DNA of 64,000 nt from Deltaproteobacteria bacterium (lineage in GTDB: Bacteria > Myxococcota_A > Polyangia > HGW-17), in assembly GCA_016937155.1 (NCBI GenBank), contig JAFGWM010000079.1, forward strand, positions 1 through 64,000, given 5' to 3'. Position numbers and translations under genes: made by a program. Of this stretch, positions 11,164 to 36,460 are shown piece after piece. The number at the start of each line of letters is the position of its first letter. Within the stretch, counting starts at the first letter, position 1. Below the pieces are notes generated by a model that saw only the letters and a program-made list of their open reading frames with translations, was not told the origin of the DNA and ran no database searches.

Positions 11164-12837
11164 ATGACACTTGTGAAACCTATTAAAATTGATAATTACC
11201 TCGTTGTAGAGGGTTTCCAAATTGGTCATTCCACAGAAATTTTCAGATGTATTGATACAAAATCCGATTTTTTCGATGATTTTCAGGTTCTTCACAAGAT
11301 TCACTCAAATGTCAGGGATGTTAAAAAAGCATCCCATCGAATGTTTCGGGAAATTAAAACTCTTCAATCATTGTCTCACAGGGGCATTCCCAGACTTATT
11401 CACTCTGGAAAAATAAAGAATTCAAATTATTTTACCAGAGAGTACACTTGGGGAAAGAGTCTTCTTCAACTTTTCCGCCAGCTTCGTGATCATCGTAAAC
11501 TAATGGCACCTCATCAGGCAGTAATTATTGCCAATGGGATAGCCAGAATCCTCGAGTATGCTCATCGTGTTCATCTGGACTGGGATGAAAATAATCTGGT
11601 GGTTCATCGAAATCTGAACCCCAGAAACATAATTATATCCTACGAGGGGGAAGTTAGAATAAATGGTTTTGGGATGGCACCTCTGAACATCAGTTCAACC
11701 CATCTGGACAAGTATGATTTCAGAACTATCGGGTATCTTGCCCCGGAGCAGACCAGAGATTTTTTTTCAGATAAACGTTCAGATATATTCAGTGTTGGCG
11801 CCATATTGTACGAAATGCTTACCGGAATGCCGGCATTTCTGGACAAAAACGCAAGAAATGTAATTTCCCGTTTGAGATCTGGAAGTTATGTAAGCCCAGA
11901 TAAGATTGTTCCCGATATTGATCCAACTTTATGCGCAATAATTAATAAATGCTTGTCAAAAAACCCTGATGATCGTTATGAAACCGCTTCGGAGCTTTCC
12001 AGAGAATTTGAAGCATACATGATTAGAACCCGTCCTGGATATGGCAAGGGCAATGTATCAAGACTAATAAAAGGCCTGTTTATTAACGATGTAAAAAATG
12101 AAATTAAGGTTTTTTATGAACAGTTTTACGAATGGAAAGGGGAAGGCGCTCAGTTACTGAAAGCTATCCCTGTTCTTTTATATCAGCGTTTTAACAGCAT
12201 GCCCAGAGAAGTTACTGCTCCTCCAACCCTTGAGGAGGAGGAAAAAACTCGAGAAATGATTGCGCATGTTGATGATGATATAGAGGATAATGAGGAAACA
12301 AGACTTTTAGGGGAAGATCCTGACTATTACAGAGATGAAGTTAATCCGAGCTTTGAAAAAGCCACAAAAATTGGGATCATTCGTAAAAATCAAAACGCCC
12401 TAGATACTGCAGTGGATGATGATGGAAAAACCCTTCCTGTTTTAGCTGAAGAAACCAAAATGCTTGACGATATGGAGGATATTTTTGCTGATGAACCTTC
12501 TACTGTGAGTGAAGATTTTGATGAATTTGGAGATGAAGAAACTGTACTTGATGATGAATCTCACGGGCGTTACAAACGAAGACCAACACTGTATTTTAAA
12601 GCTGATGATCAACTTCAGAAAACACATCAGGAAATTATTGCAAGTCGGAATACATTCAATAAGCCTCCAGCCAGACCCTCATCACCACCTCCCTCTCTTA
12701 GGCAAAATCGGCAACCGGTAAGGGTGAAAAACTCTCGTATAAACACAAAAGTTGTAGCCACTGCAATTATTGCATCAGTACTTGGATTGGGACTCTTTTT
12801 CCTGACAATATGGATCCTTACTAATTTTGTTGGATAA
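11164..12837 (+). CDS. Membrane-anchored protein kinase-like protein, predicted catalytically dead
   Basis: A 557-residue protein with a bacterial Ser/Thr kinase fold (about residues 10-290), a long acidic linker and one C-terminal transmembrane helix (about 532-555). The fold is recognisable (EQTR after LAP, SDIFSVGAILYEMLTG, DDRYETASEL), but the catalytic residues are gone. The ATP-binding lysine position is Gln 41, HRD is HRN (Asn 150), the following lysine is Asn 152, and DFG is GFG (168-170). The glycine loop is also decayed. The alphaC glutamate (63) and APE motif remain. The linker repeats Glu-Thr-basic-Leu/Met motifs near 380, 430 and 460. GGAG precedes the ATG. It is probably a scaffold or allosteric partner. 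Confidence 0.85.
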   Translation: MTLVKPIKIDNYLVVEGFQIGHSTEIFRCIDTKSDFFDDFQVLHKIHSNVRDVKKASHRMFREIKTLQSLSHRGIPRLIHSGKIKNSNYFTREYTWGKSLLQLFRQLRDHRKLMAPHQAVIIANGIARILEYAHRVHLDWDENNLVVHRNLNPRNIIISYEGEVRINGFGMAPLNISSTHLDKYDFRTIGYLAPEQTRDFFSDKRSDIFSVGAILYEMLTGMPAFLDKNARNVISRLRSGSYVSPDKIVPDIDPTLCAIINKCLSKNPDDRYETASELSREFEAYMIRTRPGYGKGNVSRLIKGLFINDVKNEIKVFYEQFYEWKGEGAQLLKAIPVLLYQRFNSMPREVTAPPTLEEEEKTREMIAHVDDDIEDNEETRLLGEDPDYYRDEVNPSFEKATKIGIIRKNQNALDTAVDDDGKTLPVLAEETKMLDDMEDIFADEPSTVSEDFDEFGDEETVLDDESHGRYKRRPTLYFKADDQLQKTHQEIIASRNTFNKPPARPSSPPPSLRQNRQPVRVKNSRINTKVVATAIIASVLGLGLFFLTIWILTNFVG

Positions 12838-12853
12838 AATCCTTCATCTGAAT

Positions 12854-13591
12854 TCAAAGTAACCTGATAAGTTTACTGTATCCAGTCTTTGATACTGAGA
12901 GTTCTGTTCCATCCTTTAGAACAGCAATTTTTGAATCTCTTGTCATGGGTTCAATCCTAACCAGGTAATTGATATTAAGTATGAACGATCTATGTATTCT
13001 TACAAAATCTCTTGCGGGCAGAACATCCGCCAGATTGCTTACAGTATCATTTTTAAGATAACTTCCATTTCTGGTGACAATGAGCACATAATCGTCCTGG
13101 GCTTCAATATGTGAAATCTCATCAACGGGCACAATATTAACAGTTGCACCATCTCTGATTACAATTCTATCAAGTTTTTCCGTATAACGACTTTCAAGAA
13201 CATTTCTATAATCGGGATGTTTGCCGCCAGAAATATCAGAGGCTATTTTAGTGACACATTCTCTGAGTCGCTCTTCTTCAACAGGCTTCAGAATATAATC
13301 AACGGCATGAACCTCAAACGCCCTCAAAGCAAATTCGTCATACGCCGTAACAAATACGATAACCGGGGTATTGTCTCCCAATAGACTTACCACATCAAAT
13401 CCGTCCAGTTTTGGCATCTGGATATCAAGAAAAACAATATCCACTGGAGAACTCTGAACCATTCTGACAGCATCGAATCCATTACTACCCATCCCAACAA
13501 TTTCGATCTCTTCAAAATTTTCAAGTAGTTCCTTTAAAGACTCTCTGGCCAGTTCCTCATCATCAATTATAAGTGTTTTTAGCTTTTTCAT
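12854..13591 (-). CDS. LytTR-family response regulator
   Basis: A 245-residue two-component regulator. The N-terminal receiver domain (about 1-120) has the acidic pair IDDEE, the phospho-acceptor aspartate in DIVFLDIQMPKLDGF and the switch lysine in YILKPVE. The C-terminal LytTR DNA-binding domain (about 145-245) has IEAQDDYVLI and FVRIHRSFILNINYL, the family signature. LytTR proteins bind direct repeats upstream of target genes and often control extracellular or envelope functions. It overlaps the upstream sensor kinase by four bases (ATGA), so the pair is translationally coupled. It ends convergently 16 bases from the pseudokinase. Confidence 0.93.
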   Translation of the reverse strand: MKKLKTLIIDDEELARESLKELLENFEEIEIVGMGSNGFDAVRMVQSSPVDIVFLDIQMPKLDGFDVVSLLGDNTPVIVFVTAYDEFALRAFEVHAVDYILKPVEEERLRECVTKIASDISGGKHPDYRNVLESRYTEKLDRIVIRDGATVNIVPVDEISHIEAQDDYVLIVTRNGSYLKNDTVSNLADVLPARDFVRIHRSFILNINYLVRIEPMTRDSKIAVLKDGTELSVSKTGYSKLIRLL

Positions 13592-14667
13592 TTTCCATTA
13601 TCTCCAGAAATTTTCAGTGGGATTTTCAGAACTACAAGGAATTGAGTTCCAGTATTTTCAACTGTCATCTCCGCCTCAATTCCATAGATGGCATTTAACT
13701 GACCTTTTACTGCATTCAATCCTATACCTTCACCATTGAGACGGGCACTGTCTCTTTCAAATGGATTTTTTACTGATATTTCCAGATAATCCGCAAAATC
13801 CAATACTGAAATTTCAACTTTTCCACCATCAACAATTTGTTGAATACCGTGTTTTACCGCGTTTTCAACAAGAGGGAGAAGGATCAGAGTTGGTATCATA
13901 AGGTTTTCAGTACTACTCTCAATAAAGAACTCCCATTCCAGCCTTTTTCCAAATCGAATTTTTTCAATATTCAGATAATCTTCTATGTGGGATATTTCCT
14001 CTCTGACACTTATCAACTCACTGCTAGCGTGTTTCAAAGAGTATCTCAAAAAGGTACTTAACTTTTGTGTTAGTTTGCGCGCAGACTCAGGATCCTTCTT
14101 AATCAATGTAGATAAGGCATTTAGGGAGTTAAATAAAAAGTGAGGATGTATTGTGGTTTTTATTCCTTTAAGTTCAGCCTTTGAAAGTTCCAGACTCTTT
14201 TCCACTGCATGGTTTTCAGCTTTAACTGCATTCTCAAAATATATCACTGTGTAGTGAAACAGCACTGCTACAAAAGCATAAAGTGTCCCAACTGCACCGG
14301 TAACCAGACGAAATCTGATTATGGAATTTTTATAAATATCCTCTTCAAAAACAAAATCCAGAATTCTCGACCATCCCTGTAGTGAAAATATCCATACAGA
14401 TTGAATTATAATCAGACTGATCATAAAAATCACAATCATTCTGGTAATTGAAGTTTTTCCAAGGGGATAAGCTTTGCAAACATGCCTCAAACTTAACAAT
14501 TGAAGCAGTTCAATAACCATAGGAATACTCATCACCAGAAGGGTTCTGGCAAGTATCATTCCTGATGAAACATGAAGCAATATGGAAATCTGCAGTGTAA
14601 GGGGGAGCCATATCAGGCTGAAAATGAGAAAGCTTTTCCTGGAGTAGGGAAGTGCAATATTATTCAT
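13588..14667 (-). CDS. LytS/YpdA-type sensor histidine kinase
   Basis: A 359-residue kinase with four or so N-terminal transmembrane helices (to about residue 150) and no obvious extracellular domain. The dimerisation region carries the His_kinase family motif HPHFLFNSLNALSTL (phospho-acceptor His in the HPHF segment), and the ATPase domain has PLVENAVKHGI and GEGIGLNAV. This class pairs with LytTR regulators, and the partner gene overlaps it by four bases. The stop of the upstream LiaF-like gene overlaps its start codon. Lack of an external sensing domain suggests it reads a membrane signal or is controlled by the LiaF-like protein. Confidence 0.92.
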   Translation of the reverse strand: MNNIALPYSRKSFLIFSLIWLPLTLQISILLHVSSGMILARTLLVMSIPMVIELLQLLSLRHVCKAYPLGKTSITRMIVIFMISLIIIQSVWIFSLQGWSRILDFVFEEDIYKNSIIRFRLVTGAVGTLYAFVAVLFHYTVIYFENAVKAENHAVEKSLELSKAELKGIKTTIHPHFLFNSLNALSTLIKKDPESARKLTQKLSTFLRYSLKHASSELISVREEISHIEDYLNIEKIRFGKRLEWEFFIESSTENLMIPTLILLPLVENAVKHGIQQIVDGGKVEISVLDFADYLEISVKNPFERDSARLNGEGIGLNAVKGQLNAIYGIEAEMTVENTGTQFLVVLKIPLKISGDNGK

Positions 14668-15362
14668 CAGTTTTTAACTTCAACTCCACCCATTATCACC
14701 ATACCGGTAATATTAAGTATTTTATTTTTTTCAGATTTTTTTGTTCCTGCAAATCTGGTTTTATTTTCCATTCCACCTAAAAGAGGAGATCCATCCATGT
14801 TTACATCCCATTCCTCTGGCACTCTCATACTTATTCCACCCCACATTGCAAAAACATCGATAGTTATTTCATTTCCCATCATTTCGGATTTCCTCAGATC
14901 CAGTTCCACTCCGCCCATGATAACACTGATTTTACCTCCGGAAAGTTCCTTTGAATTATTTTGAAATTCTCCACCACCCATCACAACATTAAAATCAACA
15001 GAGGCTTCACTGATATTTTTAGCACTTTTACCAAATACTGTATGAATGACTATTGCAATACCCCCAAAGATCAGAATAAAAGGCCAAAGCTGTCTGTATG
15101 TAATTACGATTATTCCAATATTTTTCAAAAGGAGAACTGTTCCGGTACCCGTAAAAAAAATAAAGTGAATTATTTTTTTAAAGTCAAATGGTCGTCCCAG
15201 ATTTCCGATTCCGGCAAGAATCAGCACCACCGGCCAGAATCTCCACAATTCGAAATTCCCTAACAGACCCATGTTTTTTAAAAGGAATAATACCCCAACA
15301 GTGATAAAAGCTACTCCTGCAAATACCCTTGCTCCCTGCGTGTGCTTTCTTCTACCATGCAT
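14667..15362 (-). CDS. LiaF/YvqF-like membrane protein (cell-wall stress)
   Basis: A 231-residue protein with paired hydrophobic helices in the first 110 residues (FAGVAFITVGVLFLLKNMG, FWPVVLILAGIG, LWPFILIFGGIA) and a C-terminal beta-helix-like domain with the recurring pattern IMGG-x-E/V. That combination is the DUF5668 plus cell-wall-active-antibiotic-response arrangement of LiaF. In Firmicutes LiaF inhibits its cognate sensor kinase. Here the stop codon overlaps the kinase start, giving a three-gene operon. The partner is LytS/LytTR type rather than the NarL type seen with classical LiaF, so the regulatory wiring is inferred. Confidence 0.85.
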   Translation of the reverse strand: MHGRRKHTQGARVFAGVAFITVGVLFLLKNMGLLGNFELWRFWPVVLILAGIGNLGRPFDFKKIIHFIFFTGTGTVLLLKNIGIIVITYRQLWPFILIFGGIAIVIHTVFGKSAKNISEASVDFNVVMGGGEFQNNSKELSGGKISVIMGGVELDLRKSEMMGNEITIDVFAMWGGISMRVPEEWDVNMDGSPLLGGMENKTRFAGTKKSEKNKILNITGMVIMGGVEVKN

Positions 15363-16415: not shown

Positions 16416-17252
16416 ATGAATAACTATTCCCCACCGTTAACCATAAGTCATTTTGACAATGTATATAATATGGGTCCGGAAATTGGCAGGGGTGGATATG
16501 GTATTGTCTATGAATGCACCGATGCATGGCAAAATGATCTCGTTGCAAAACAGATTATTCCACTTTCAGGAGATACTCAGGAAACAGTTTATGCCAGATG
16601 GATGGATGAAAGTAAAAAACTGATTCTGATGAGACACCCCAATATAACCTTTCTCCACGATGCCTTTTTTTGTGATGGCCATTTCTATCTGATAATAGAA
16701 AAATGTGATTTAACCCTCTGGCAGATACTCAACAATCCCAAAATATCAACTCCCCAGCTTCTTTACCCTGTGGCAAGATGTATTCTTCAGGCTGCGGATT
16801 TCATGCATAAAAACGGTTATGTTCACAAGGATCTGCATCCTGGAAATGTATTCGCAACTTTTATCAAGGACGAACTTCACCCTGGAAATAAGAATGCTGT
16901 TACCTTCAAGGTTGGTGATCTGGGGATTTCCCGATTAATGAATGAGGTTAATGCCTTCAATACACTTTTAGCTCCATGGATGCTGCCACCTGAATATATA
17001 TCCCCTGAAAAATTCGGTAAAATTGGATCCGGTACTGATATCTACCACACAGGTCTTATTCTACTTGGTCTTTTAGCCTCAAGTCCACTGATGTTCACAA
17101 ATGACCAGATTTTGTCAGGATATCCCATGAATTTTTCAGCTAACAACTTTGGATTAGAAGGACAGGTCATCGCGAGAGCACTGGAACCGGAAATGTCAAA
17201 AAGATATCCCAGCGCACTTGAATTCTGGAAAGAACTGAAATCACTTATTTGA
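16416..17252 (+). CDS. Serine/threonine protein kinase, probably active
   Basis: A 278-residue soluble kinase consisting of little more than the catalytic domain. The glycine loop GRGGYGIVYE, the ATP lysine in VAKQI (Lys 45), an alphaC glutamate (65), the HRD equivalent HKD (Asp 139) with HPGN following, and DLG in place of DFG (168-170) keep every essential acidic residue and the lysine. The usual lysine two residues after the catalytic aspartate is His 141, a deviation also seen in some active bacterial kinases. TDIYHTGLILLGLL is helix F. It has no transmembrane or sensor domain. AGGAAAAGGAA precedes the ATG. It could act on or with the pseudokinase 3.6 kb upstream. Confidence 0.87.
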   Translation: MNNYSPPLTISHFDNVYNMGPEIGRGGYGIVYECTDAWQNDLVAKQIIPLSGDTQETVYARWMDESKKLILMRHPNITFLHDAFFCDGHFYLIIEKCDLTLWQILNNPKISTPQLLYPVARCILQAADFMHKNGYVHKDLHPGNVFATFIKDELHPGNKNAVTFKVGDLGISRLMNEVNAFNTLLAPWMLPPEYISPEKFGKIGSGTDIYHTGLILLGLLASSPLMFTNDQILSGYPMNFSANNFGLEGQVIARALEPEMSKRYPSALEFWKELKSLI

Positions 17253-24860: not shown

Positions 24861-26891
24861 ATGTCTGAAAATAAAACGCACCTTTTGAATCATCTGCCTG
24901 TCGGAGTTATAGAATTTTCACTTACTCATAATTCACACCATGCTCTCACTGATTTCAAAATTATTTATTCAAACCCCCAGTTTCAAAAGATTTCTGGACA
25001 TACTGAATCTGAGTTGAATGATCTGACCATGAAAGATCTCTTCTCTCCGGTAAACCAGGACAAATTTGAATGGGGTGAACTTCTTACCACTGTATCATTC
25101 AGTGGAGAAAATCAGGAATTTGAGAAATTCTTTAAATCCATCCACTCATGGTTTAGCATAGCTGTTTCATTCATTGAAACAGACAGGATGCTTATCACTA
25201 TAATGGATATTTCACTTCACAAACACAGATCATCTGAGCAGCAGGCATATCTTTCTCTGACTGATAATATAACTGCGTCTACAGATTATACAGGCACTTT
25301 TAGATTCATAAACCGAAGGTGGGCGCCGGTTTTGGGTTGGACTGCAGGAAGCATTATCCATAATAATTTTTTGGATTTTGTGCACATTGAAGATCGTATT
25401 TCAGTTAAAAAAGCCATTGAATCTGCATCAGCAAATTCAGATGCGAAAACATTTTTGTGCCGAATGAAACATAAATCAGGAACCTTCAGATGGATTGAAT
25501 GGAGAGTGAAATCAGTTCAGTTTTATCTTCATTATACTGGCAGAGATGTAACCCCGATTAAAACCAGCCGGGAGCTTAATACAATTCAGGAAAAAGAACT
25601 TTCCCTTGCAATTAAACGCCAGGAAGTTCTATCTGAATTCTCACTTGAGTTTACTTCAGATAGAGATTTTAGTGATAAAATGCCAAGAGCACTGGCTTTA
25701 GTTGGAAACCATCTGAATTTAAGCAGGGTCTATGTTTTTGAGGATGATGAGGGTGGAGAAACAACAAGTAACACCTTTGAGTGGTGCAACACTGATATCG
25801 AACCACAGATGGAAACCCTTCAGAATGTTCCGTATGAATTAATCCCCTCATACCGGAAAATACTTCATGAACATGGTTATATTTATTCTAAAAATATAGA
25901 TGAACTTCCAGTTGACCTGAGGAATATTCTTGAACCTCAGGGAATAAAGTCGATACTGATCTTCCCTCTTGTCAGAAATGGTCAGATTGTTGGTTTTACA
26001 GGCTTTGATGAGTGTCTGTATTACCGGAAGTGGTCAAAATCTGAATTTGAATTAATACGTACCCTGACTGGAATTATTACAAATGTCATCACCCACAACA
26101 AACATCTGAAAGAATTGAAAAAAAGTGAAGAGAATTTCCGTATGATGTTTGAGACGATTGAAGATCTTCTGGTAATTGGCAACTCAAAGGGGGATATAAT
26201 TCATTGCAATTCAAGTGTGTCCAGTGAGCTCGGATATTCATTCGATGAACTAATGAAAATGAAAACCAGTGACCTCATTCCTGACAACTGGAAAGATCAG
26301 TATCAGATATCAATGGATGAAGTTTTCACTGGAAGACGTGATCATTTCGTCATCCCTTTTCTAAAAAGCGATGGAACACAGTATTCAACAAAAACTCAGG
26401 TGTGGCTTGGTTTCTGGAATGGTGATATAAGTATTTTCCAGTTGAGTGACACTGGCTCTAAAATCACAATTACTAAAGAAACTGATGTTAACAGAGTTAT
26501 TAAAATAGAACATGATCTCTATATCCAGGATATCAAACTTAAAAATATTATTGAAGCATCCGAAGCAGGAACCTGGGAATGGAATATAAAAACAGGAGAG
26601 ATCACTGTAAATAAAAGGTGGAAGGAAATCATCGGATTTGAAGAAGATGAAATGAAGGAAATTGATATTAAAACATGGCTTTCCCTGGTTCATAAAGAAG
26701 ACTTAAAAAAATCAAATCTGAATCTCAAAAACCATTTTGATGGAAAGTCTAAATATTATAAGTGTAATTGTAGAATAAGACACAAGGATGGACACTATAT
26801 TCGCGTTCTCAACCACGGTATGGTGATATCCAGAAATCTTGATGGTACCCCTTCTTTCATGTCGGGGATAAATCTCGTATTATCATCATGA
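24861..26891 (+). CDS. PAS/GAF multidomain sensor protein lacking an output domain
   Basis: A 676-residue soluble protein built only of sensory modules. There is a PAS near 10-115, a PAS/PAC near 130-235 (GTFRWIEWRVKSVQFYLHYTGRDVT), a GAF near 255-405 (VYVFEDDEGGETTSNTFEWCN), a PAS near 415-535 and a last PAS/PAC near 550-675 (GTWEWNIKTGEITVNKRWKEIIGF). The stop follows the last PAC directly. No kinase, GGDEF, EAL, receiver or DNA-binding domain is present. The GAF is a close relative of the stand-alone GAF at 31510-31998. GGGGAA precedes the ATG. It may be a truncated sensor kinase or a genuine sensory adaptor for one of the two hybrid kinases nearby. Confidence 0.87.
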   Translation: MSENKTHLLNHLPVGVIEFSLTHNSHHALTDFKIIYSNPQFQKISGHTESELNDLTMKDLFSPVNQDKFEWGELLTTVSFSGENQEFEKFFKSIHSWFSIAVSFIETDRMLITIMDISLHKHRSSEQQAYLSLTDNITASTDYTGTFRFINRRWAPVLGWTAGSIIHNNFLDFVHIEDRISVKKAIESASANSDAKTFLCRMKHKSGTFRWIEWRVKSVQFYLHYTGRDVTPIKTSRELNTIQEKELSLAIKRQEVLSEFSLEFTSDRDFSDKMPRALALVGNHLNLSRVYVFEDDEGGETTSNTFEWCNTDIEPQMETLQNVPYELIPSYRKILHEHGYIYSKNIDELPVDLRNILEPQGIKSILIFPLVRNGQIVGFTGFDECLYYRKWSKSEFELIRTLTGIITNVITHNKHLKELKKSEENFRMMFETIEDLLVIGNSKGDIIHCNSSVSSELGYSFDELMKMKTSDLIPDNWKDQYQISMDEVFTGRRDHFVIPFLKSDGTQYSTKTQVWLGFWNGDISIFQLSDTGSKITITKETDVNRVIKIEHDLYIQDIKLKNIIEASEAGTWEWNIKTGEITVNKRWKEIIGFEEDEMKEIDIKTWLSLVHKEDLKKSNLNLKNHFDGKSKYYKCNCRIRHKDGHYIRVLNHGMVISRNLDGTPSFMSGINLVLSS

Positions 26892-26951
26892 ACAGTCTTG
26901 TTCTTTATGTACATCAATGATAATCAGTAACCAGTTTTACACTTGATTTAA

Positions 26952-26975
26952 CTTAGGAGATACCTTAGGAGATAC
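26952..26975 (+). repeat. 12-bp tandem duplication in the cupin leader
   Basis: CTTAGGAGATAC occurs twice without a gap, each copy containing AGGAG. A third purine-rich site, AAAGGAGA, follows at the proper distance from the cupin ATG at 26992. Only the last one is placed to serve as the ribosome site; the duplicated ones sit too far upstream. Confidence 0.6.
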
Positions 26976-26991
26976 CTGAAAAGGAGAATCC

Positions 26992-27336
26992 ATGATAACA
27001 AAAAAACTTATTGAAACAGTTGTGATGGATAACGCTCACAATGTAGATGCAAGAAATCTTTATGATACTCCTGATGCGATGATCACCATCATTACTTTAA
27101 AGCCCGGTCAATCGCTAAAAAGACATATTACACCTGTGAACGTGGCCTTTTATGTGATTGAAGGCAGCGGAGAAGTTGAAATAGGAGAAGAGCGTTTGAA
27201 AGTTGACCGTGATACACTGGTGGAGAGTCCTGCCAATATTGTTCATTGCTGGTATAATACATCTGAAAAACCGCTGAAGTTTATGGTGGTAAAAGCACCC
27301 AAACCTGCAAAAAAGACTGTTTTCATAAGTGACTAA
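26992..27336 (+). CDS. Small cupin-domain protein
   Basis: A 114-residue single-domain cupin. The conserved beta-barrel motifs are visible: motif 1 around LKPGQSLKRHITPVNVAFYV with EGSGEVEIG, and motif 2 around PANIVHCWYN with a following KFMVVKAP strand. Only one histidine is kept in motif 1, so a full metal site of the usual two His, one Glu, one His is doubtful. Such proteins act as sugar epimerases, dioxygenases or ligand sensors, and the sequence does not decide between these. It stands alone between two signalling genes. Three AGGAG-like sites precede it, two of them within a 12-bp tandem duplication. Confidence 0.85.
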   Translation: MITKKLIETVVMDNAHNVDARNLYDTPDAMITIITLKPGQSLKRHITPVNVAFYVIEGSGEVEIGEERLKVDRDTLVESPANIVHCWYNTSEKPLKFMVVKAPKPAKKTVFISD

Positions 27337-27473
27337 TCATCATTTGTGATTTCTTCTATTTCATATACAATTCGCAATTCATTCTATCTGGAGATTAGCC
27401 TATAAGGGTTCCCAACTCTTATGTTTCAGGCTATAATTCATTCACCTTAAAACATGGAGTCGAAAAAAATAAA

Positions 27474-30400
27474 ATGCAAAGTGGACTATTCGCTGTAATT
27501 ATAAACGATGACTCTATCCAGTTGAAACTGATTTCCTCAATATTAAAAAAAGCCGGTTTTAAAACTGCTGAATTTTCTATGGGCAGCGATGCACTGGATT
27601 TTCTGAAGGAAAATACTCCTGATTTAATAATTACAGATCTTTATATGCCTGAAATTGATGGGTGGCAAATCTGCAGACAAATTAAAACCAGTGTATATCA
27701 TCATCTTCATAAAACACCAGTCTGCATAACAAGTGCCACCTTTTCCGGTATGGACAGTTATACCAACCATCCTGGAATCCCTGGCGCTGATCTATTTATT
27801 TCATTTCCAATTAATTCAAGGGAGATGATAAAAAAAATTAATTCCCTTATGATAAATCATTCTGACAATGGACAGACCATAGATATTTTATTGGGTATTT
27901 CCGATGAGGATGTCCTCCATGATCTCTCACACTCAATTTCTTTTGGAAATCTAAAAGCTCACAGTTTCCAGGATGTAAATGAGTTTTATGGGGAAATTCA
28001 AACCGGAAAATACTCTCTGATTATTGCTGATCACACTATACTCATGTCTAATAACACCAGTTCAGACTTCGATAAAACTCCTGTGCTGGGAATTCTTAAC
28101 TGGTATGATGGTGAAAAAGTAAAAGATTTCTGGAACAAGGGTATTACTAATTTTGCGGTTCATCCTTTTGATAAGAATTATATCAAACAGTTATGTTTAT
28201 TTCTTCTCCAGAAGAAAGATTCTCTGGATCTGGAAAAACTTCTGGATTCAAGAACCAGAGAACTTTCAATATCAACATCAATTCTTTCAGAAATTCAAAA
28301 TGTTGCCCATATCGGAAACTGGAAATTCAATTCAAAATCTCACAATCTTTTCTGGTCTGAAGAGGTGTACCGTATTTTCGGGATCCGCAATGATGAAACT
28401 CTTATTACCTACAGCAAATTACTATCTTTAATACATCCTGAAGATCTTGAATCTTTCAAGCACCTTTGCTCGGAATCCACATATTTAAAAGGTGTATCTA
28501 ATGAATTTGAACACCGGATAGTACGTGAAAATGATGGAGAAATCAGAACAGTTATTGAGAAATTTTTTAATGAATCCGCAAATGATGGGTCAGTGGATAC
28601 AGTTGGCATAGTTTACGACATAACTGAAAAACGAACAGTGGAAAACGAGCTTACCAGAAGCATTTCAACCCTTAATGAGAATGCTCAGGTCATGAAAATT
28701 GTTCTTGATACTACTGATATTCATGTTGCTTTTCTTGATACTGATTTTAATTTCATCTGGGTCAATAGAATTTATGCTGAAAAAAACAACTCTGACCCTC
28801 AATATTTTCAAGGAAAAAATCATTTTGAGCTGTTTCCTGATGAAGAAAACATAAAAATTTTCAAGAGTGTTATTGATACCGGAAAACCATATATAGCAAA
28901 TGCCCGCAAATTCATTTTAAAACAAAATGAAACCGAAATTACCTCATGGTGGGACTGGAGTCTGATTCCTGTAAGAACTGATGAATCAATCACAGGCCTT
29001 GTGCTTTCCCTCAGGGAAGTTACTTCACAGGTTCTTGAACAACAAAAGGAAAAGAAAACATCTGTAAGACAACAAAAAGAAAACATGATAATTGCTCAGA
29101 TTGCAACATCAGATGAACTCGCCACAGGTGATATCAAAAAACTGGCTGAGAAAATTACAGAAGAGGTTTGTACCAAAATGGGTGTATCCCGTGTTGGGAT
29201 ATGGCTTTTCACTGAAGATGAGACAACACTCAAATGCCTTGACAATTTCTCATTGAAGGCAGAAATACACGAAAAAGATGCAGTGCTTCTGGAAAATGAT
29301 TTCAGAAATGAGTTTTCACATCTTAAAATGGAGAAATTCGTTGATGCACATGATGCATGGGCGGATCCAAGAACTCATGGTTACCTGGAAAGTTATTTAA
29401 AACCACATAATATCAGGTCAATGCTGGATACAGTCATCAGATCCGGTGGAAAAACGCTAGGAACAATCTGCCTTGAATATACGGATAAAATACATCACTG
29501 GGAAGAAGACGAGATTTCATTCGGGTGCCAGTTAGCTGATCAGTTTGCTCTGGCAATTTCCAATATGGAACTTCAGAAGGCTACCGAAAGGTGGAAAGAA
29601 GCCAGAAATATGGCGAAAATTGGAGACTGGGAATATTCAACTTCAACAGATACACTGAAAGGCAGTGAAGAACTGTTTAAAATCATCGGAATTCCAGTGG
29701 ATATTGAGAAAAACCCATCCTTCATTGTGCCATACGCAGAATTTGAGAGTTCAGTTAAGAATTTCAGCAACGTCGTTCCTTATCTAAAAAAAGTCAGTTC
29801 AGAAAACGGTAAAATTGATATCGAATTTGAAATTATTAATCAAATCACAGGAGAGACTCACTTCTTACATACGCTGGGTAAACATAAAGAAGGCACTGAC
29901 GGAGTTTCTAGAGTAATTACAGGAACAATACAGGATATCACAGAAAAAAAACTGAGAGAGAAAGCACTTCAGGAAAGTGAACACAAACTCAGATCTGTTT
30001 TCGATAACAGTGTAGATTTTCTAATGCTTCTAGATAAGGAACATCGGATAACCATGATTAACAGACCTGAAGAAGGTCTTAAAAGTGAAAGTCTTGTCAA
30101 CAAACCTCTTTTCACCCTAGTTGAACCAAAAGATCAACAAAGGGTAAAACAACATCTTGATGCAGCATTGAACGGTGAAGGTGTTCAAACATATGAGACT
30201 GTATACCAAAGACCTTCGGGAGAAACGGTATATTTCAGTTCAATTGCATCCCCGGTTATATTTGATGGAGAAATAAGTGGTTTAGTTATTTCCTCTAGGG
30301 ATATTACAGAACGTATAAATTTACTTGAGAAAAATAAAATCCTTGAAAAGCAGTATTTTCAGGCTCAGAAAATGGAGGCTGTCGGAAGACTTGCAGGGGG

Positions 30401-31502
30401 GGTTGCCCATGATTTCAATAATGTGCTCTGTGCAATTTCAGGAAACACATCATTACTTTTGGATGACATTTCAGAACATCATCCATTCAGAGAATCAATA
30501 TCCGAAATTCATGATGCGGCGAAAAGAGCCGGGGATTTAACAAAACAACTGTTACTGTTTTCAAGCAGACAGGTTATCGAACCCACCAATTTGAATTTAA
30601 ATTCACTTATTAAAAATATTATACCAATGCTGAATAGGCTCCTTGGAGAAAAAATAACTCTTGAGACAAATTTCAAATCGTCAGAAACAAGCATTTCCGG
30701 TGATATAGCACAGATGGAGCAGATTCTTTTAAATCTTATAATTAACGCCAGAGACGCCATGCCCGATGGTGGAAAAATTGCTATTGAAACCGGTGTTGAG
30801 GAAAAACAGAGTGTGGTCACTGCTACAGGATTACTTCCCGAAGGTCTTTACTCGGTTTTAACTGTAGAGGATACAGGACATGGAATAGAGAGAGAAATAC
30901 TTGATAAAATTTTTGATCCTTTCTTTACAACCAAGGAAACAGGAAAAGGAACAGGTCTTGGCCTTTCAACAGTGCTGGGAATTGTGAAGCAGAACAGTGC
31001 AGGAATTGATGTTATAACAAAACATCAACTGGGGACAAAATTCATAATTTATTTCCCGTTCAAATCACCTGAGATATCACAAAGCAGGTCCCGTACTAAA
31101 AGCTCATTTCAAAAAGGCCATGAGACCATTCTTCTGGTAGAGGATGAAGATATTGTAAGAAATGTAGGCAGGAGAATACTTGAAAATTATGGTTACAGGG
31201 TTCTGGAGGCAGAATCGGGAATAGAAGCCATTGAAATTTCCAGAAATTATTCCGGAAAGATAGACTTACTGCTTACTGATGTTGTAATGCCTGATATCAA
31301 TGGAAAAGAACTAAGCGAGAAGCTATATTTAACAAGACCTGATATGGAAATACTGTTCACATCAGGTTATACTCAGAATGTCATTGCACAGCATGGAATA
31401 CTGGAAAAAGGAATTAATTTTATTCCCAAACCCTACAGTGTTGAAACTTTAACTGTGAAAGTCAGAAAAATTCTGGATAAAAAACAGGAAAATTCTGAAT
31501 AA
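27474..31502 (+). CDS. Hybrid sensor histidine kinase, REC-(degenerate REC)-PAS-PAS-GAF-PAS-PAS-HisKA-HATPase-REC
   Basis: A 1342-residue cytoplasmic phosphorelay protein. The first receiver (about 4-127) has [15 protein letters not shown] second receiver-like domain (about 135-255) lacks that aspartate motif. Two PAS domains (about 265-515), a GAF (about 540-700) and two PAS domains (about 705-960) follow. The kinase has GGVAHDFNN with phospho-acceptor His 979, and an ATPase domain with [20 protein letters not shown] and [11 protein letters not shown]. The C-terminal receiver (about 1218-1335) has [14 protein letters not shown]. No transmembrane helix is seen. The HDFNN motif places it with the large NtrB-like hybrid kinases common in delta-proteobacteria. 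Its paralogue is at 40614-43475. Confidence 0.92.
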
Positions 31503-34542: not shown

Positions 34543-34732
34543 AACAAAACTGGATAACCATACTTCAGGGACACCAATTCCGGTTACAACTCCAAGTAAT
34601 TGTAACAGATGATATTTAATCAACTATTTCAGTATCCACACATATTTTGCTAACCATCAGCTTTACTCTTAAACGATTTTGAGTCAGATTAAAGAGATCT
34701 CAATGTGGCTGTATACTTTAAAGGTGGTTTAT

Positions 34733-36460
34733 ATGAAAAATTTATTTATGATTATGGTGGCCTTACTTCTGGTATTGATTTCGGGTTGTTCCGAAGAGAA
34801 AGCTAAAAGTTGTGGTAACGGCATTGTGGATACAGGGGAGGAATGTGATCCAAATGCTCTTTTGCAGGAGCAGTGCAATGATGTGGGATTCTATGGCGGA
34901 AATCTTTCATGCAATGAAGATTGTACCTACAACACATCAGGTTGCAGTGGTTCCTGTGGTGATGGAATTATAGATGTCACTGACGGGGAAGAATGTGATT
35001 CAGGAATTTCCGAAGAAGTGAACTGTGAATCCATTGGTTATTATAGAGGAAATCTTAGCTGCAATTCAGAGTGCAGATTTGATATTTCTGAATGCGAAAG
35101 ATGCGGTGATGGTGTCGTAAACGAAGATGACGGAGAAGAGTGCGAGCCTGAAACAGGTGTTTCAATGACCTGTGAAGACTTCAGTTACTACGGAGGAAAT
35201 CTTTCTTGTTCCGATGAATGCAAAATGGATTTTTCATCTTGTGATGAATACGGATACTGTGGTGATAATGTTCTTCAGGGTGACTATGAAGAATGTGACA
35301 CTGTTCCTGTGAACACTGAATGCAGAATTGAGGGACATCATGATGGTGAACTTGAATGTGATTCGGGGTGCTCTGTAAATTCAGACTCCTGTATTGACAT
35401 TATACAGGTTGCCACAGGAATGACTCACACATGTATTCTTACCAACATGGGTGATGTTTATTGTTTTGGTGAAAACAATCATGGTGAACTTGGAAACTTA
35501 AGTGCTGGTACATTCTCGATAGTACCAGTCATGGCAAACTTACCACAGCCGGCAATAAAAATCTCAACAGGAATCAGTTACACATGTGCGGTGCTGAATG
35601 ATCACTCTGTATACTGCTGGGGATGGAACTATGCCGGACAACTGGGAAACGGGAATACGGAAGATGCACACGAACCTGTGCAAACAAGTCTTGTTGCAGC
35701 AGCTGAAAATATTGATTGTGGCAGCTCACATACATGCGCCCTGTTAAGTAGTGGTCAAATTAGTTGCTGGGGTTCCAATTATTCAGGAGAACTTGGTAAA
35801 GGAGATACTGGAAATACTTCATCAACCCCGACTCTTGTAACGGGAATAAACAATGGGATTATAGTGAAAAATGGCAGCGGATTTTCATGCGCGGTGAGAA
35901 GTGACAATACCCTCTGGTGCTGGGGTTCCAATAGTGATGAACAGTTGGGAAATGGCCAAAGCGAAGGTTCAAACGTTCCGGTTCAGGTGTCAAACGGGGA
36001 AGTATACCTCAGTAATGTGACAGATGTTGACTGTGGAGAAAGACACGCTTGCGCGATTTATTCAAATAATGTTGCCTGCTGGGGTGATGGTACTGATTAT
36101 AAACTTGGAAATGGTACTGAAGACGATGAGAGTTTTGCAAATCCGGTAAGCGACATCGAAAATCCTTCAAAAGTCGTATGTGGCACCTCATCAACTTTCG
36201 TCAAATCCAGCGATGGAAAATTCTACGTATGGGGTTCGAACTACATGGGGCAACTTGGTTTGGGAATAATCCAGAATTACTCCATTCTTCCATCTGAACT
36301 CACATCCATCAGTGGTATCACAGGATTTGACAGTGGAACCGATCACACCTGTGCATTTATCTCAAGCGGAATGGGATACTGCTGGGGCAACAATTCGCAG
36401 GGTCAGTTGGGAACCGGAAATCAGATTACCGAATCTGCCCCCACCCCTATTATTCCATGA
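34733..36460 (+). CDS. Lipoprotein with DUF4215 Cys-rich stalk and seven-repeat RCC1 propeller
   Basis: A 575-residue surface-type lipoprotein. The signal peptide ends in the lipobox ISGC. Four Cys-rich DUF4215-type modules follow (about residues 28-215), each opening like CGNGIVDTGEECD and closing with a GGNLSCN-type pair of cysteines. Then come seven RCC1-like repeats (about 225-575), each with a THTCAL-type strand, a CWG motif and a final QLGNG turn, enough for one closed seven-bladed propeller. Most blades carry a cysteine pair, suggesting disulfides and export. ATG 34733 is chosen because AAAGGTGG precedes it. The role is probably binding or adhesion at the cell surface. The 60849-58702 lipoprotein has the same plan with a different propeller. 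Confidence 0.88.
   Translation: MKNLFMIMVALLLVLISGCSEEKAKSCGNGIVDTGEECDPNALLQEQCNDVGFYGGNLSCNEDCTYNTSGCSGSCGDGIIDVTDGEECDSGISEEVNCESIGYYRGNLSCNSECRFDISECERCGDGVVNEDDGEECEPETGVSMTCEDFSYYGGNLSCSDECKMDFSSCDEYGYCGDNVLQGDYEECDTVPVNTECRIEGHHDGELECDSGCSVNSDSCIDIIQVATGMTHTCILTNMGDVYCFGENNHGELGNLSAGTFSIVPVMANLPQPAIKISTGISYTCAVLNDHSVYCWGWNYAGQLGNGNTEDAHEPVQTSLVAAAENIDCGSSHTCALLSSGQISCWGSNYSGELGKGDTGNTSSTPTLVTGINNGIIVKNGSGFSCAVRSDNTLWCWGSNSDEQLGNGQSEGSNVPVQVSNGEVYLSNVTDVDCGERHACAIYSNNVACWGDGTDYKLGNGTEDDESFANPVSDIENPSKVVCGTSSTFVKSSDGKFYVWGSNYMGQLGLGIIQNYSILPSELTSISGITGFDSGTDHTCAFISSGMGYCWGNNSQGQLGTGNQITESAPTPIIP

Follow-up and report, generated by a model that had tools for sequence, protein, structure and literature searches.

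The window, the 64,000-nucleotide stretch of DNA analysed here, contains a gene for a kinase-fold protein at 11164-12837 (+ strand). The open reading frame runs uninterrupted by internal stops over 557 aa, as the first-pass annotation of the sequence had claimed, and its product matches the protein kinase domain of Pfam (PF00069, E=7e-31) and no other Pfam domain. An AlphaFold2 model built with 32 related sequences places the kinase domain and extra C-lobe helices confidently up to residue 344 (pLDDT mostly >90), and residues 1-345 (11164-12198) can accordingly be described as a kinase-fold domain with a conserved C-lobe helical extension. The nearest solved folds found by Foldseek are PknB kinases, the best being M. 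tuberculosis PknB (6b2p, target TM 0.90). Persistence of the APE, helix F and helix I regions, noted in the initial reading, is borne out by A193-P194-E195, the helix-F aspartate D207 and the invariant Arg271, all of which are kept. The domain is followed by a juxtamembrane linker (about residues 346-525; 12199-12738) that is predicted to be disordered (pLDDT <50 over most of it, at about residues 379-481) and that is acidic, as had been proposed, with 44 acidic against 26 basic residues. The C-terminal membrane helix, likewise anticipated, is supported by a hydrophobic KD peak at residues 534-552 and a confidently modelled helix at 528-555 (12745-12828), with just two residues beyond it.

Alignment to PknB and to the nearest active relatives places Asn150 (11611-11613) at the catalytic aspartate of HRD and Gly168 (11665-11667) at the aspartate of DFG, upholding both substitutions that had been called from the sequence. 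The lost ATP lysine had been assigned to Gln41; the position is instead His44 (11293-11295), where QVLH aligns without gaps to the xAIK of active relatives, and Lys45 follows directly. The further substitution at Asn152 is present but is weak evidence of inactivity, because Ser or Thr occupies this position in the nearest active relatives (HRDVSPQN/HRDVTPQN), which also do without that lysine. The glycine loop is degraded. The activation segment is nearly full length, one residue shorter before APE than in active relatives, and carries a motif, [D/E/S]-Phe186-Arg187 (11716-11724), specific to the clade of pseudokinases described below, in which F186 and R187 are invariant whereas 22 of 22 active relatives have L and K; F40, S99 and R105 are likewise clade-specific and invariant or nearly so. 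This protein thus combines the two general marks of a bacterial Ser/Thr pseudokinase, a eukaryotic-like kinase fold and loss of the expected residues at H44, N150 and G168. Catalytic inactivity is the natural reading of these losses, which do not strictly exclude nucleotide binding or other activity.

The surrounding genes include a LytTR response regulator, a sensor histidine kinase (His_kinase, PF06580) and a LiaF-like membrane protein at 12854-15362, a run kept in a second genome of the genus (G001). Within the genus, HlyD-like, LytTR regulator, histidine kinase, LiaF-like, phosphoesterase, kinase and UPF0047 genes are collinear, and amid them the pseudokinase gene is inverted as a single gene relative to L060 (4230-6026); a search for flanking inverted repeats as a possible cause of the inversion gave nothing convincing. 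Synteny around the pseudokinase gene is seen within the genus only and is weakly tested beyond it, the contigs of other single-domain homologues spanning just 4-13 kb, and no FHA protein or common neighbour was tied to the gene. Elsewhere in the window lie a PAS/GAF protein and, next to it, a large hybrid histidine kinase of PAS-GAF type that has two receiver domains (24861-31502), and a protein with six matches to RCC1 repeats, a eukaryote-like beta-propeller (34679-36460).

The orthologue in G001 is 49% identical over the full protein and 56-58% over the domain, keeps the 'M[TS]LVKP' start and shows the same three losses (VALH, HLN and GFG). A profile built from 13 such pseudokinase domains and searched in 193 genomes of the class recovered 17 members at 363-517 bits, all in one family and present in 8 of 8 of its genomes; the next matches in these 193 genomes scored <=294 bits, and those examined were active kinases. 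Over the stretch compared, the contig of one family member (G004:C40) is identical to JAHITJ010000165.1 from a Myxococcota bacterium, which places the window in a genome of this phylum. A scan of named genomes with a weakly specific pattern returned mostly generic kinases, and a search of a phage collection gave just distant generic kinase matches. A defence kinase assignment (PD-T4-6 / MADS6) was rejected: the MADS6 score was 98 bits against an NCBIfam cut-off of 460, and the PADLOC matches reflect generic kinase similarity.

The 17 domains form one clade (support 100/100), although its long branches call for caution on where it attaches. Two architectures occur within it. Type A proteins, like the one studied here, consist of the kinase fold, an acidic linker and a terminal membrane helix (6 of 6 proteins). 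Type B proteins (L003, L065, L066, L067, L069, L070, L071, L072 and L073) have no membrane helix; in them the pseudokinase domain, with HGN (in two), HYN, HKN or HHN in place of HRD, is joined by a linker to a second kinase domain in which VAIK, HRDLKP and DFG are intact. This genome carries a type B copy itself (L003, 133-2520, - strand, on contig G000:C77), and genomes of genus g4 hold up to three copies of the tandem gene. Because type B is nested within a paraphyletic type A, the tandem form looks derived, provided that the root lies among active kinases. We delineate a new and well-defined clade at family level, with a tandem form as its sister, within a class of proteins that is already known; a literature search of limited scope turned up no report of a pseudokinase-kinase tandem in bacteria, which is weak evidence of novelty.

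The distribution of residue losses across the clade suggests an order of events. The HRD aspartate is absent in 17 of 17 members (Asn in 15, Ser in 2), while the DFG aspartate is kept in 6 of 17, with Gly or Ser in the others, and the beta-3 lysine, where the available sequence covers it, is present in all members but the two of this genus, which have His. L061, L062, L064, L065, L069 and L073 keep both the lysine and the DFG aspartate, and most of them also keep the catalytic-loop Asn. Since the catalytic aspartate is missing throughout while the other two residues persist in relatives, its loss is, judged from these sequences, most simply ancestral, with the DFG aspartate and beta-3 lysine lost later in sub-lineages. 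The first-pass annotation had held that close relatives keeping Lys, Asp and DFG would point to recent decay rather than to a selected pseudokinase, and had suggested aligning orthologues to see whether the substitutions are fixed. The comparison gives a mixed picture: all three losses recur in the genus orthologue and the catalytic aspartate is never seen (0 of 17), but Lys and the DFG aspartate survive in several relatives within the family, a pattern that does not imply recent decay.

In close type B pairs, omega over the pseudokinase domain is 0.07, 0.10 and 0.24; the type A pair L061/L062 gives 0.12 with dS already >1, and synonymous sites are saturated between the two genus members. The one observation that could suggest decay is that, between the genus members, the pseudokinase domain has diverged faster than the kinase domain of an active paralogue (56% against 91% amino-acid identity). 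Against it, the pseudokinase is about as conserved as its neighbours in the same comparison (48-70% identity), clade genes are intact wherever they are not cut by a contig end, omega lies well below 1 and the clade-specific residues are invariant. Recent decay is rejected on omega and clade-wide conservation, and we give a decaying gene hardly any credence. The earlier proposal of a selected pseudokinase stands, with same-genus losses, the clade-wide absence of the HRD aspartate and low dN/dS (0.07-0.24) in agreement: the comparative sequence data describe an old pseudokinase lineage with stepwise residue loss, kept by purifying selection, and the product of this gene as a real, selected and probably inactive membrane-anchored pseudokinase.

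The linker had been described as carrying repeated Glu-Thr-basic-Leu motifs. Repeated Glu-Thr sites are indeed present, but they are not strictly followed by basic-Leu (EETRLL, EETKML, EETVLD); across relatives the pattern is [acidic]-T-x-hydrophobic-hydrophobic-[D/E]. The first site, EETRLLG (Thr379; 12292-12312), is kept in the genus orthologue as EETRLLGEDPDYY; the second, EETKMLD (Thr431; 12448-12468), has E430 and T431 invariant in six aligned type A proteins; and the third, EETVLDD (Thr460; 12535-12555), has the counterpart DETRLLD in the genus orthologue. In this protein, [DE][DEST]T-x-hydrophobic is found 3 times, where shuffled sequences would give 0.30 (p=0.004), a value that is descriptive, as are all p-values here, since the pattern was defined after viewing the sequences. 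The stricter T-x-hydrophobic-hydrophobic-[DE] is enriched in the group and not significantly in this protein alone: type A linkers contain 12 against 1.05 expected (six proteins) and the linkers of active transmembrane relatives 24 against 0.62 (nine proteins), totals that include near relatives, so that the counts are not independent, and that cover the loci gathered for the other comparisons. Tandem-clade linkers contain 4 against 0.64 expected, mostly at different sites. From sequence, the threonine motifs are best seen as a juxtamembrane array common to the linkers of active transmembrane kinases, and the sharing of this array between type A and active linkers argues for a common linker function. 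The linker threonines may also resemble FHA-binding phosphothreonine sites, and 25 FHA-domain matches occur in this genome.

An active relative with this organization, L002 (G000:C5), is encoded in the same genome and consists of a kinase, an acidic linker, a membrane helix and a further C-terminal part. The linkers of L002, L074, L075 and L038 each hold 3-5 acidic T-x-hydrophobic-hydrophobic-acidic motifs, far above chance; in these active kinases the motifs are candidate autophosphorylation and FHA docking sites. Such transmembrane Ser/Thr kinases of the HRDVSPQN type, found in Myxococcota, resemble the present protein in having an N-terminal kinase domain, a C-lobe extension, an acidic linker with T motifs and a membrane helix, and differ from it in keeping all catalytic residues and a C-terminal part beyond the membrane helix.

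With moderate confidence, we favour a role as a non-catalytic, membrane-tethered platform for phospho-dependent docking. The C-terminal helix would anchor the inactive Ser/Thr kinase domain in the inner membrane, leaving the fold and the linker on the cytosolic side. Its ancestor was probably an HRDVSPQN-type transmembrane kinase from which the catalytic aspartate and the periplasmic part disappeared, while the fold, the membrane helix and the acidic, Thr-rich linker next to it remained. The pseudokinase domain would bind an active kinase through kinase-kinase contact, this partner would phosphorylate the linker threonines, and the phosphothreonines would in turn bring FHA-domain proteins to the membrane. 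A kinase partner is suggested by the sister clade, in which this pseudokinase domain and an intact kinase share one chain. A scaffold phosphorylated by the kinase encoded at 16416-17252 had been proposed at the outset; the scaffold remains plausible and gains comparative support from the threonine array common to active transmembrane kinases, but that choice of partner does not hold. The kinase has intact catalytic residues (VAK, HKD and DLG, read from sequence) and a 70% identical counterpart in G001, but a search of the other six genomes of the family, several of them incomplete, gave no orthologue at E<=1e-40. With an orthologue in two genomes of the genus only, against 8 of 8 family genomes for the pseudokinase clade, it probably does not serve the clade as a whole and was rejected as a conserved partner. 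Better candidates would be an L002-type active transmembrane kinase, whose linker bears the same motifs, or a type B tandem kinase.

The nearest competitor to a docking platform, which we consider unlikely but worth serious attention, is an allosteric regulator: the domain would switch an active kinase by direct contact, as JAK JH2 acts on JH1, and the linker threonines would be incidental or feedback sites. The sister clade lends this weight, since there the domain stands in cis on the N-terminal side of an intact kinase, with HGN instead of HRD in two proteins, and the residues F40, S99, R105, F186 and R187 suggest a conserved surface. However, this gene has no fused kinase, an AlphaFold2 model of a tandem protein (pTM 0.46) yields no reliable inter-domain placement or interface, and conservation of the threonine array in type A linkers clearly exceeds what chance would give. 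We can offer only as a doubtful conjecture that a single module exists in two forms per cell: in one, a dead kinase tethered to the membrane would act in trans; in the other, part of a cytosolic tandem, the module would control an intact kinase in cis. This would be a bacterial counterpart of JAK that arose once and was duplicated. More improbable still is a nucleotide-binding sensor or alternative catalyst of the kind exemplified by SelO or SidJ, with their altered kinase folds; several members do keep the beta-3 lysine and DFG aspartate, most also with the catalytic-loop Asn, but this protein lacks the lysine as well as the DFG aspartate and has a degraded glycine loop. Unorthodox catalysis by a still active kinase, through WNK-like lysine relocation, would fit Lys45 after His44 and the lysine kept by clade members outside the genus, but WNK kinases, unlike this clade, retain the HRD aspartate, which 17 of 17 members here do not, and we dismiss it as highly improbable.

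Bacterial pseudokinases are common and little characterised. The present clade offers an ordered series, loss of the catalytic aspartate followed by DFG and beta-3 lysine, and it comes with a tandem sister and, in this very genome, an active transmembrane relative. The conversion of a receptor kinase into a scaffold, and the existence of JAK-type pseudokinase-kinase allostery in bacteria, can thereby be put to the test. In the JAK family, the JH2 pseudokinase lies N-terminal to the active JH1 kinase. The sister clade, in L003, L065, L066, L067, L069, L070 and others, shares this order and, in two members, has HGN for HRD; the likeness, presumably convergent, lies in the kinase fold, and the gene studied here encodes no such tandem. 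In this phylum, a pseudokinase is unsurprising in itself, because 11 pseudokinases among 99 Ser/Thr kinases have been reported in M. xanthus (PMC6791715).

A 2025 review distinguishes the bacterial pseudokinase families ActPs1-3, GLW, CP1, DYD and DLHK (PMC12599244). Judged by residues and architecture, the clade appears to fall outside the defining features of ActPs2, ActPs3, GLW, CP1, DYD and DLHK. Of the three marks of ActPs2 (beta-3 Lys to Arg, HRD Asp to Asn, DFG deletion), this protein shows one, having His44, Asn150 and GFG. GLW pseudokinases are bacterial too and have a membrane helix on the C-terminal side of the domain, but they have GLW for HRD and LLLL/W at beta 3 (Leu or Trp at the lysine), where this protein has HRN (an HxN motif) and QVLH with His44 (PMC12599244). 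CP1 proteins have no membrane helix and a linked COG3899 ATPase domain, whereas here there is a membrane helix and no other Pfam domain; DLHK proteins keep the HRD aspartate and have no membrane helix, against Asn150 and a membrane helix here; and DYD proteins, from actinobacteria and firmicutes, have a canonical HRD and/or DFG, against HRN and GFG in a member of the Myxococcota. The closest functional likeness is to MviN (MurJ) of M. tuberculosis, an ActPs3 protein that also has a dead kinase domain in a membrane protein and whose C-terminal pseudokinase tail, once phosphorylated by PknB, recruits the FHA protein FhaA (PMC12599244). ActPs3 domains are marked by deletions in the activation loop and elsewhere and by complete replacement of HRD (Lsidhpsr), whereas the domain here is N-terminal and almost full length, with a nearly complete activation segment and HRN kept in outline; MviN also has a MurJ part, where this protein has none and a free linker instead. 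By this analogy, the best reading of the protein is that it may function in the manner of MviN-FhaA.
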